The notes under the pieces were generated by a model. That model was not told the origin of the DNA, made no database searches, and saw nothing but the letters and a program-made list of their open reading frames with translations. 64,000 nucleotides of DNA, from NCBI GenBank assembly GCA_903870995.1, contig CAIQFD010000056.1:25640-89639 (forward strand). Reading direction: 5' to 3'. Below, one piece after another: positions 26,396 to 29,126 of the stretch. The first letter of the stretch is position 1. The number at the start of each line of letters is the position of its first letter. The DNA is from an uncultured Methylophilaceae bacterium (lineage in GTDB: Bacteria; Pseudomonadota; Gammaproteobacteria; Burkholderiales; Methylophilaceae). A program made the translations under genes and the position numbers.

Positions 26396-26460
26396 GCTTG
26401 ATTGAACCGCTGAGCATGTTGTCTGTCTGACTTTTACATTTCATGATTGAGGACTTTCCC

Positions 26461-27315
26461 GTGCGTTCATTTTTCTCTAAATTCTCATTGGCTTTCATTC
26501 TATTTGTTAGCGCTCAAATCGCCTTGGCAGCTGACAATGGCTTACTTTGGAAGATTGAAGCGCCTAGCGGAAAAGTCAGTTATTTACTTGGCACCATGCA
26601 TACCGATGATCAACGGGTGACTGAGTTTTCGCCCAAAATCATCGAGGCTTTTAATCAAAGCGAAGCCTTTATGATGGAGACGCTGCCGCCGCGTGACCCC
26701 TCTATTTTTATGATGAAGCAGGGCACGGTAGCTGAGATGCTCACAGAAAAAGAATTCGACCAGGTGCGTGAATTAGCAGATTTTCATTCGATGCATATCG
26801 AAGCTGCCATGCACATGAAGCCTTGGCTACTCGCTGTCATTTTTGATTTGCCTAAACCTAAAGCGCTTTACTCAATGGATGAATTATTGATGGCAAAAGC
26901 CGAAGAGCAATTCAAGAGAATTGTCGGATTGGAAAAAACGCGTGAGCATTTTTCAGTGCTTGATAGCGTGAGCATGGATGATCAAATGGTGATGCTACGT
27001 GCTGTGCTCAAGCGCAGCCAAAAAACAAAAGAGCGTGATTATGAAAAGCTTCTTAAGACTTATCAGTCTGGGGATTTGAAGAAAATTATCGATCTGGATG
27101 ACAAGATTACAGGCGGCATGTTGCCTAAAGCTGTTTGGGAAAATATGCGGGTTAAACTAATTGATGAGCGCAATGCTGGCATGGCTGAAGGCTTGGTGTC
27201 TGAGGCAAAAGATAAAGCCGTGTTTGCAGCGGTGGGTGCATCGCACTTGGCAGGTGAGGGCGGCATATTAGCTCGATTACGTGGTGCTGGGTTTGCGGTA
27301 ACGCCAGTCAAATAA
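26461..27315 (+). CDS. TraB/GumN family protein, secreted
   Basis: About 284-aa exported protein of the TraB/PrgY/GumN family, a Tiki-like putative metalloprotease fold. The N-terminal motif GTMHTDDQ and the C-terminal AAVGASHLAGEGGILARLRGAGF are diagnostic. I prefer GTG 26461 over the ATG at 26443 because GAGGA lies 7 bp before it and the result begins with a clean Sec signal (MRSFFSKFSLAFILFVSAQIA). Function in bacteria is not established. It converges with the AbiEii-like gene. Confidence 0.88.
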   Translation: MRSFFSKFSLAFILFVSAQIALAADNGLLWKIEAPSGKVSYLLGTMHTDDQRVTEFSPKIIEAFNQSEAFMMETLPPRDPSIFMMKQGTVAEMLTEKEFDQVRELADFHSMHIEAAMHMKPWLLAVIFDLPKPKALYSMDELLMAKAEEQFKRIVGLEKTREHFSVLDSVSMDDQMVMLRAVLKRSQKTKERDYEKLLKTYQSGDLKKIIDLDDKITGGMLPKAVWENMRVKLIDERNAGMAEGLVSEAKDKAVFAAVGASHLAGEGGILARLRGAGFAVTPVK

Positions 27316-27333
27316 GGCTGAAAATATTATTTC

Positions 27334-28077
27334 TTAGTCTGCAGTTGATGTGCCTAAAATTTCTGTTGCAACATCCTGTTCGTACTTTGCAATTTGCTCA
27401 GCAAAATATTGGTAAATGTCTTGAATGTTGGTTTTTAAATCAATAGATTCAAAACCTTCATCGTTACCATCTAAAGGGACATTGCCAAGTAAGACTTCTT
27501 TTGCGTATTCACGGCTGTATGATACATCGGCAAGTTCTCCAGCCTCTAATATGTCTCGAACTGTTTTAGCACGCGTTTGCAGCATGATCATCAGATCAAA
27601 TAAATCTCTAGACCGGATGCGTTGTGATATTAGCCAAGACTTCATCTCAAATATTGCTTCAAAAGACATGATATTGAAAGCTGTGAGCGAATCCTGCACT
27701 TTACTCATTTTCGAAAAATGTAGATAAGGTGCATCATTCCTTGAAAAAAAAGTAAGCTTTACGCCATCGACAACATAATCTCGTGATATTGACAGCAAGT
27801 CTTGGCCGTTAATTTTAGCTTGAGTGATTTTCCAAGCGGGTGTTGCTAATTGGACATTACTTCCAGTTGTTCTAAGAGAATCAACAATCTGATCTATTTG
27901 ACTTCCAGACATTTTTTCCGCGGGAACCCAGAAATCTAAATCCTCACTTAATCGATGACCTATTTGGATGGATAGGGCAGTGCCACCTATGAGAGTGAAG
28001 TTAGCCATTAAATCTATCTTGGCTAACTTACTAAAAATCTTAGCTGTGCGATCTGGGGCGAATGTTAAATCAAGCAA
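27334..28077 (-). CDS. AbiEii/AbiGii-type nucleotidyltransferase, putative toxin
   Basis: A 247-aa member of the nucleotidyltransferase fold used by AbiE/MenT-type toxins, which modify tRNA or other acceptors. The active-site pattern is GGTALS (residues 31-36) followed by SEDLDF (44-49), and the C-terminal RSRDLFDLMIML matches the family's helical motif. It overlaps the upstream XRE gene by 8 bp, so the pair forms one operon. Codon choice and base composition look more AT-rich than the flanking housekeeping genes. Toxicity is inferred and not shown. Confidence 0.85.
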   Translation of the reverse strand: MLDLTFAPDRTAKIFSKLAKIDLMANFTLIGGTALSIQIGHRLSEDLDFWVPAEKMSGSQIDQIVDSLRTTGSNVQLATPAWKITQAKINGQDLLSISRDYVVDGVKLTFFSRNDAPYLHFSKMSKVQDSLTAFNIMSFEAIFEMKSWLISQRIRSRDLFDLMIMLQTRAKTVRDILEAGELADVSYSREYAKEVLLGNVPLDGNDEGFESIDLKTNIQDIYQYFAEQIAKYEQDVATEILGTSTAD

Positions 28078-28540
28078 CTTTTGCTGCCTTTGAAATGTTG
28101 TTCATCATTCTATTTAAGCTGTTACTTGCAGCAGGATTTTTTTGGATAAAGCTTTGGACTCTAGCTAGCAGGATACTTTCCCCATAAGCCGCGTAGATGC
28201 GAACAATGTCTTCAAAAATTCCTCGTTCTATGACGCGATCAATGAGTACTTCATCTTTAAGTGAAGAGTTGCTCCAATCGTAAGGAAATGAAAGGCGCAA
28301 CGTTTGAGATTTTCTTGTACTTGTTATAATTTCTAGAGGGTTGAGTTGGCTTTGAATGCTGTCAGCACAATGCACAATTTCCATTAGTCTGTTGACGCCT
28401 ATTTCTTTGATTGAACCATTCTCTATGGCGCTAATTGTTGCACGTGAGACGCCGGCGCGCTCTGCAAACTCAGCCTGTGTAATGTCACTGGCAGTTCGGA
28501 TACGCCGGATTTTATTGCCGATAGTGACTAGGTTAATCAT
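28070..28540 (-). CDS. XRE-type helix-turn-helix regulator, putative antitoxin
   Basis: A 156-aa protein with an N-terminal XRE/Cro-type HTH (residues 8-60, core TQAEFAERAGVSRATISAIENG) and a C-terminal domain containing the FPYDWSNSSLKDEVLI stretch. In my reading this type of C-terminus often accompanies AbiEii-like partners. It is unlike the winged-helix AbiEi antitoxin. The gene starts right at a predicted transcription start behind a perfect palindrome, so it probably represses its own operon. Confidence 0.87.
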   Translation of the reverse strand: MINLVTIGNKIRRIRTASDITQAEFAERAGVSRATISAIENGSIKEIGVNRLMEIVHCADSIQSQLNPLEIITSTRKSQTLRLSFPYDWSNSSLKDEVLIDRVIERGIFEDIVRIYAAYGESILLARVQSFIQKNPAASNSLNRMMNNISKAAKVA

Positions 28541-28546
28541 GGGGTG

Positions 28547-28575
28547 ATTTTATTTAGCCCAAGGGTTAATGTCAA
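28547..28575 (-). promoter_or_regulatory. Promoter of the XRE/AbiEii operon
   Basis: Read on the minus strand: TTGACA (28575-28570), a 17-bp spacer and TAAAAT (28552-28547). The -35 hexamer lies inside the palindrome. The expected +1 falls on or beside the A of the antitoxin ATG at 28540, which would give a leaderless mRNA. No Shine-Dalgarno sequence precedes that ATG. Confidence 0.65.
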
Positions 28576-28596
28576 ATATATTTGACATTAACCCTT
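28561..28596. repeat. Perfect 36-bp palindrome, putative operator
   Basis: AAGGGTTAATGTCAAATA is followed at once by its exact reverse complement. It overlaps the -35 region of the antitoxin-toxin operon, the typical place for an XRE autorepressor to bind. On RNA it could also fold into a hairpin, but there is no T tract, so a terminator is less likely. Confidence 0.85.
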
Positions 28597-28616
28597 AAGG
28601 CCATCAGAGCTGTTTG

Positions 28617-29126
28617 TTATTGATTTGGATAAATCAATTTGTCCGTTTCAAATCCTAGTTCTTTGGCTTTCGCAATTAATTGCTGTTTCACAATGTAAGA
28701 CATTTGAGGCGTGCGAGAGAGTATCCATAGGTAATCTTTGCCACCAGTCACTAGTGCATAGCTGTATGCAGTTTTATCTAACTCAATAATGTTATAAGCC
28801 CCATAAAACGGTCCAAAAAACGACACTTTCAATCTGCCAACATCAGGTGTTTCGACAAAATAAGCTTTGCCGATGGCTTCATTCCACTTTTGCTTCTTGG
28901 TGTCAAAGCCACGATTGAGTACTTTTAAACCGCCATCTTCGCGCAAGCTGTAGGTGGCATTGACCTTATCTAAGCCACGTTCAAAGCTATGATCTAGCCG
29001 CGCGATTTCATACCAGGTACCTAGATATTTATCAGTCTCAAAGCCTGTTACTGCCTTGTAGTTGGCATCATCACCCGTACACGCAAGTAAAGCCAAACAA
29101 AGTAATAAAGTGAGTTTTTTAAACAT
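28617..29126 (-). CDS. blc: Bacterial lipocalin (Blc-like), lipoprotein
   Basis: Outer-membrane-type lipocalin of 169 aa with a lipobox near the N-terminus (LALLACTGDD). The lipocalin signature GTWYEIARLDHSFERGL and the closing YLWILSRTPQM segment are clear. By family it binds lysophospholipids or fatty acids and is linked to envelope stress. It follows rhlE on the same strand with a 17-bp gap. Confidence 0.93.
   Translation of the reverse strand: MFKKLTLLLCLALLACTGDDANYKAVTGFETDKYLGTWYEIARLDHSFERGLDKVNATYSLREDGGLKVLNRGFDTKKQKWNEAIGKAYFVETPDVGRLKVSFFGPFYGAYNIIELDKTAYSYALVTGGKDYLWILSRTPQMSYIVKQQLIAKAKELGFETDKLIYPNQ

Follow-up and report, generated by a model that had tools for sequence, protein, structure and literature searches.

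Among the described systems closest to the locus reported here are the AbiE system and the MenAT systems of M. tuberculosis, both of which have nucleotidyltransferase (NTase) toxins. NTase motifs I-IV consist of GG, R-x3-D-x-D, K-x6-R and D (PMC3985639). In AbiE, a type IV system, the antitoxin (AbiEi), which joins a winged-helix DNA-binding head to a distinct antitoxic C-terminal domain, is encoded ahead of the AbiEii toxin, and two 23-bp inverted repeats are located at the promoter (PMC7319586). The MenAT systems, which are represented by the toxins MenT1, MenT3 and MenT4, pair an NTase-fold toxin that has an S/T-x-D active-site pattern with a small antitoxin encoded next to it. For MenT1 the phosphorylated T39 is described together with D41, MenT3 S78 is also named, and MenAT1 does not autoregulate (PMC11375011). 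Additionally, leaderless translation has been proven for PaaR2, an XRE-type repressor in the PaaR2-PaaA2-ParE2 toxin-antitoxin locus of E. coli O157:H7 (PMC8630535).

The locus analyzed in this study is located in a 64,000-nucleotide stretch of DNA from an uncultured Methylophilaceae bacterium (hereafter the window), and we consider it probable that it constitutes an autorepressed toxin-antitoxin operon whose toxin is AbiEii/MenT-like, rather than AbiE proper. The antitoxin gene comes first (28070..28540, minus strand; ATG start, 156 aa, predicted to be leaderless) as defined by an ORF call and a match to HTH_3, and is followed by the AbiEii-type nucleotidyltransferase toxin gene (27334..28077, minus strand; TTG start, 247 aa) that matches Pfam AbiEii. 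The toxin TTG start sits where several relatives use ATG, and the antitoxin-first overlapping order is retained in most homologues, with L018 and L020 as the exceptions. A preliminary description of this DNA had reported an XRE-HTH gene that overlaps an AbiEii-like nucleotidyltransferase gene by 8 bp, and both ORFs with their 8-bp overlap are indeed present in the sequence. Its assignment of an XRE partner to an AbiEii-family NTase is likewise borne out by the two Pfam matches and by retention of this pairing in relatives.

By sequence and by modeled structure, the toxin is a member of the AbiEii/MenT family. It scores 56.6 bits against Pfam AbiEii (PF08843), which is above the curated cut-off of 22.5, and contains all four NTase motifs. 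Motif positions G31, G32, R42, D46, D48, K146, R153 and D158 are invariant across 19 homologues, as is S44, which is located two residues ahead of the first catalytic Asp. The top PDB matches of an AlphaFold2 model of the toxin (pLDDT 94) are the H. pylori NTase 4ok0, MenT1 and MenT4, with E values from 7e-7 to 1e-4 (the matched MenT structures are 8an5, 8an4 and 6y56). The toxin sequence profile also weakly matches H. pylori 4o8s/4ok0, with the SEDLDF and RDLxDL motifs in alignment. By analogy with MenT, we infer that the toxin would arrest growth by tRNA modification, probably stopping translation by adding nucleotides to tRNA. We take S44 to be equivalent in motif place to MenT3 S78, and neutralization may possibly occur via promoted phosphorylation of this residue, at the position of MenT1 T39/MenT3 S78.

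The antitoxin is composed of an XRE DNA-binding head, aa 1-66 (28343..28540, minus strand), and a C-terminal FPYDWSN tail, aa 74-156 (28073..28321, minus strand), that is predicted to be toxin-neutralizing. The head matches Pfam HTH_3 at aa 11-55 (E=1.5e-11), and in an AlphaFold2 model of the antitoxin (pLDDT 93, pTM 0.53) the head helices span residues 4-66. The antitoxin fold matches C.BclI, SinR and HipB, with all of these matches covering the HTH only, and a comparison of the tail with solved structures found no resembling fold. The tail, of ~83 aa, is conserved in 24 loci with varied heads and exhibits an invariant F-P-Y-x-W-S that is followed by a helical stretch with an invariant D and G. 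Within the antitoxin it is this part that is conserved, and it alone is common to all members whatever their head, which points to a toxin-binding role in which the tail would bind the toxin and hold it inactive. Against Pfam DUF6922 (PF21956) the window tail scores 17.5 bits, below the gathering threshold of 27, and similarity to DUF6922 is seen in 13 of the 24 tail members (E up to 1), in every case sub-threshold with a best E of 9.2e-5. We treat this similarity as a lead only; a literature search found no papers on DUF6922.

Heads attached to this tail are diverse, and XRE is one of them rather than the hallmark of the family. The sole non-XRE head above the Pfam cut-off is a RelB-type RHH in L030 (E=1e-10), while the others, all assigned at sub-threshold scores or by eye, include heads that resemble HTH_17 (L026), a winged helix (L029), HipB (L033 and L093), a CxxC zinc finger (L096) and an AbiEi_4-like winged helix (L098). 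The tail occurs without a head in L022-L025, L027, L028, L032 and L094, and inspection revealed no convincing separate HTH regulator adjoining these head-less antitoxins. RHH, winged-helix and HipB-like heads occur within one toxin group (99/98), which is therefore evidence of head exchange. An AbiEii gene adjoins the tail in nearly every pair, with some of these genes truncated or frameshifted; the tail lacks a following AbiEii gene in L018 and L020, where vapBC is present instead, and in L025 at a contig end. It is conceivable, and we propose it only tentatively, that the tail is an undescribed antitoxin domain defining a family of toxin-antitoxin systems with AbiEii toxins, whose heads are freely exchanged while the tail remains coupled to the toxin, and that the presence of a head favors a leaderless start.

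Five homologues from three genera were found among one hundred related genomes. A contig scan with a single toxin sequence as query gave no match, and an alignment was used as query instead; this search of genome contigs returned 66 loci, with the family present in most of L008-L033. Pairs of the XRE type occur in Methylophilaceae, Gallionellaceae and other Nitrosomonadales, and their toxins form one well-supported tree group (99/99). The tail is rare; searches of 369 genomes from the class and 399 from the phylum gave 5 and 3 carriers, respectively, with the window's own genome counted. No toxin homologues were found in viral contigs and phages, three viral matches to the antitoxin are confined to the HTH, and plasmid matches are remote, with toxin identity of <=31%. 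Carriage by phage or plasmid was consequently rejected.

Several members depart from the two-gene arrangement. In the Methylophilaceae contigs L018 (1830-2700) and L020 (1054-1900), an XRE-tail antitoxin with its operator is directly followed by a vapBC-like pair, which may be read either as an orphan antitoxin or as one toxin-antitoxin pair inserted into another. These antitoxins without AbiEii count against the two-gene operon reading. In L094 a head-less tail-AbiEii pair adjoins a vapBC-like pair on the opposite strand, and L016, L021 and L028 keep the antitoxin tail beside a truncated or frameshifted toxin gene. Additionally, L034-L047, mostly from Marinobacter, encode small XRE proteins that have the recognition-helix motif SRATI-x-x-LEN and are without the tail.

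The window pair occupies an insertion of approximately 27329..28612 that contains the operator and two genes and nothing further. It is flanked by a TraB-like gene (26443-27315) and a lipocalin-like gene (28617-29126), which are directly convergent in eight congeners. In seven of these eight (L078-L082, L084, L085) a bidirectional intrinsic terminator is located between the convergent genes, and the insertion replaces this terminator in the window. Homologues in G001 and G009 are at other loci, with the window-type site empty. The label of accessory locus that had been given earlier is thus supported by the empty, terminator-bearing site in congeners. Within 27316-28616 of the window, the lipocalin-like transcript may enter the operon and the TraB-like transcript may oppose it.

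Ahead of the antitoxin gene is a perfect 36-bp palindrome (28561..28596), an inverted repeat of 28561-28578 and 28579-28596 with arms of 18+18 nt that are 100% complementary and have zero loop. By our own arithmetic the chance expectation for such a perfect repeat is ~1e-6 per 64 kb. The palindrome is present as a single copy in the 1.7-Mb genome even when 3 mismatches are allowed, and its 18-bp core is single copy at 2 mismatches; with no further operator copies in this genome that could form a regulon, control is therefore local. The conserved operator core, TGTCAAATATATTTGACA (28570..28587), is kept across XRE-type loci, with 15-18 of its 18 positions retained in 14 of 15 loci and 13 in the decayed L021. 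All 15 loci have the ATG 29-31 nt away from the core, with varying sequence in between. Symmetric arms beyond the core differ by locus, extending 9 bp in the window, 5 in L018 and 4 in L012, and for this reason 36 bp should not be taken as the operator length. The outer arms of the window (28561-28569/28588-28596) have sequences that differ from those of L018 and L012, yet each is symmetric, and the chance of the 9-bp outer-arm match in the window is ~4e-6. A role for the palindrome as an intrinsic terminator was considered and rejected, since no T tract follows it and the arms are not conserved.

The conserved operator core overlaps the promoter and includes its -35 hexamer, TTGACA (28570..28575, minus strand), with the -10 hexamer TAAAAT (28547..28552, minus strand) located 6 nt ahead of the ATG. 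TTGACA-17-TAAAAT at 28575-28547 matches 11 of 12 consensus positions, and with 6 nt between the -10 and the ATG the start of transcription should fall on or adjoining the A of the ATG (predicted +1 at 28540). A -10 hexamer occurs 6-8 nt ahead of the ATG in all 15 XRE-type loci, with a mean score of 3.99 versus 0.22 (sd 0.59) after shuffling the intervening sequence (none of 5000 shuffles scored as high). A promoter scan run without guidance, in which the -10 could lie at any distance of 0-29 nt ahead of the start, placed the hexamer at 6-8 nt in 13 of 13 XRE-type loci versus 7.8% of 231 control ORFs. The corresponding binomial value of 4e-15 is an overstatement because XRE-type loci are related and the counts are not independent; taken as about eight lineages, the -10 placement is by our own arithmetic still far from chance. 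Shine-Dalgarno sequences are weak in 14 of the 15 loci, a count that is weak evidence by itself, as only a third of the control ORFs have strong ones. The constant core-to-ATG spacing and the -10 placement support well a leaderless start of the antitoxin mRNA, as predicted from promoter geometry. Among head-bearing loci of non-XRE type, the best promoter is 6-8 nt before the start in five of eight (L026, L029, L030, L095 and L096; 7.8% expected), which we treat as a lead only, as the comparison is post hoc, start choice was the analyst's and L096 has a good Shine-Dalgarno match.

These results bear on several elements of the preliminary description. The perfect palindrome overlapping the -35 hexamer and the promoter TTGACA, 17 bp, TAAAAT with +1 at the antitoxin ATG are both present as claimed. 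The leaderless message that it predicted gains from the fixed core-to-ATG spacing and -10 position in relatives. Its 36-bp operator is overstated: the palindrome is perfect and located on the promoter, but only the central 18 bp are conserved and the arms are local. The preliminary description did not point out that conservation in the antitoxin lies in the C-terminal tail, which relatives couple to many other heads, or that the insertion replaced a terminator. Its filing of the locus under AbiE does not hold, as no AbiEi-type antitoxin is present, and the phage defense it suggested is unsupported by our search for toxin matches in viral contigs and phages.

Three other explanations of the locus were weighed. 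It is unlikely that the locus is a true type IV AbiE phage defense system with a swapped antitoxin head, having no toxin-antitoxin contact and a role in abortive infection. Membership of the toxin in the AbiEii family favors this explanation, as does the coupling in L098 of the same tail to the sub-threshold AbiEi_4-like winged-helix head, but the window protein has no AbiEi domain, there is a single palindrome versus the two 23-bp repeats of abiE (PMC7319586), and phage or viral toxin homologues are lacking, though such absence does not exclude defense. Assignment to AbiE proper was rejected, the only features of the partner being an XRE-type HTH and the sub-threshold DUF6922 similarity, with no AbiEi. 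That the locus is a decaying, functionless relic is very improbable. Decayed or toxin-less copies do occur elsewhere (L016, L018, L020, L021 and L028), but both window genes are open with every catalytic position kept, and within the set the closest matches for operator and promoter alike are those of the window.

The remaining alternative concerns the promoter, and we regard it as quite unlikely. It states that TTGACA is merely an operator half-site and that transcription mainly starts upstream, read-through from the lipocalin-like gene being one example. TTGACA does belong to a symmetric site and could be conserved for that reason alone. Read-through is possible because the convergent pair has lost its terminator, and with none remaining between the lipocalin-like gene and the operon, transcription from this gene could give a leadered mRNA. 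The palindrome in such a read-through RNA would fold into a strong, stable hairpin standing before the antitoxin gene. Against this alternative, the -10 hexamer is conserved at the correct spacing even though the intervening sequence is not, the 29-31 nt from operator to ATG is constant across loci with differing upstream genes, and the Shine-Dalgarno is weak in nearly all loci.

In our preferred reading of an autorepressed operon with a leaderless antitoxin message, the XRE head would dimerize on TGTCAAATATATTTGACA, a conserved site, and as this site holds the -35 box, binding there would shut the operon off. Transcription is predicted, from a geometry conserved among relatives, to begin at the antitoxin AUG so that the antitoxin would be made from a leaderless mRNA. 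The toxin would be translated from the overlapping TTG, at a level below that of the antitoxin and coupled to it. Since 70S ribosomes can begin translation on leaderless mRNAs with no need for the customary initiation steps, it is conceivable that this layout allows early antitoxin resupply under a translation-blocking toxin. The locus would be a small natural example that ties repression and a leaderless start together within about 50 bp, which makes any advantage of a leaderless antitoxin message against a translation-blocking toxin directly testable.

A literature search, with most subscription journals outside its scope, found no description of the tail, the operator or the leaderless layout and no experimental work on any member of the family. 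The AbiEii-XRE pairing has already been counted, while these three features are apparently undescribed, as we found no paper on them. The family would represent a further antitoxin class for AbiEii/MenT toxins, one with a constant, presumably neutralizing tail versus interchangeable DNA-binding heads. The same type of pairing is seen in the AbiEii-HTH_XRE modules counted in a genome survey of P. aeruginosa, which were left unclassified, and the portion of that report available to us does not describe the tail, operator or start layout (PMC9424990). Panacea and other mix-and-match antitoxins, as far as the accessible part of that work covers them, also recombine a single antitoxin domain with varied partners; there the toxins vary, whereas here tail and toxin are constant and the DNA-binding head varies (PMC8832971). 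PaaR2, an XRE-type repressor with palindromes on its promoter and proven leaderless translation, is a precedent for the layout predicted here, but is a separate regulator rather than an antitoxin, and the toxin of its locus is ParE2 (PMC8630535). With AbiE the locus shares the toxin family, an antitoxin gene in first position and an antitoxin having a DNA-binding head and a separate C-terminal part, but it has no AbiEi domain, and a single 18-bp palindrome with a leaderless layout is present where AbiE has its two 23-bp inverted repeats. With MenAT it shares the NTase fold, the S/T-x-D active-site pattern and a small antitoxin encoded next to the toxin. It differs in that the antitoxin is XRE plus the FPYDWSN tail rather than MenA1 or MenA3, and in that a conserved operator is located on the promoter, unlike the non-autoregulating MenAT1.
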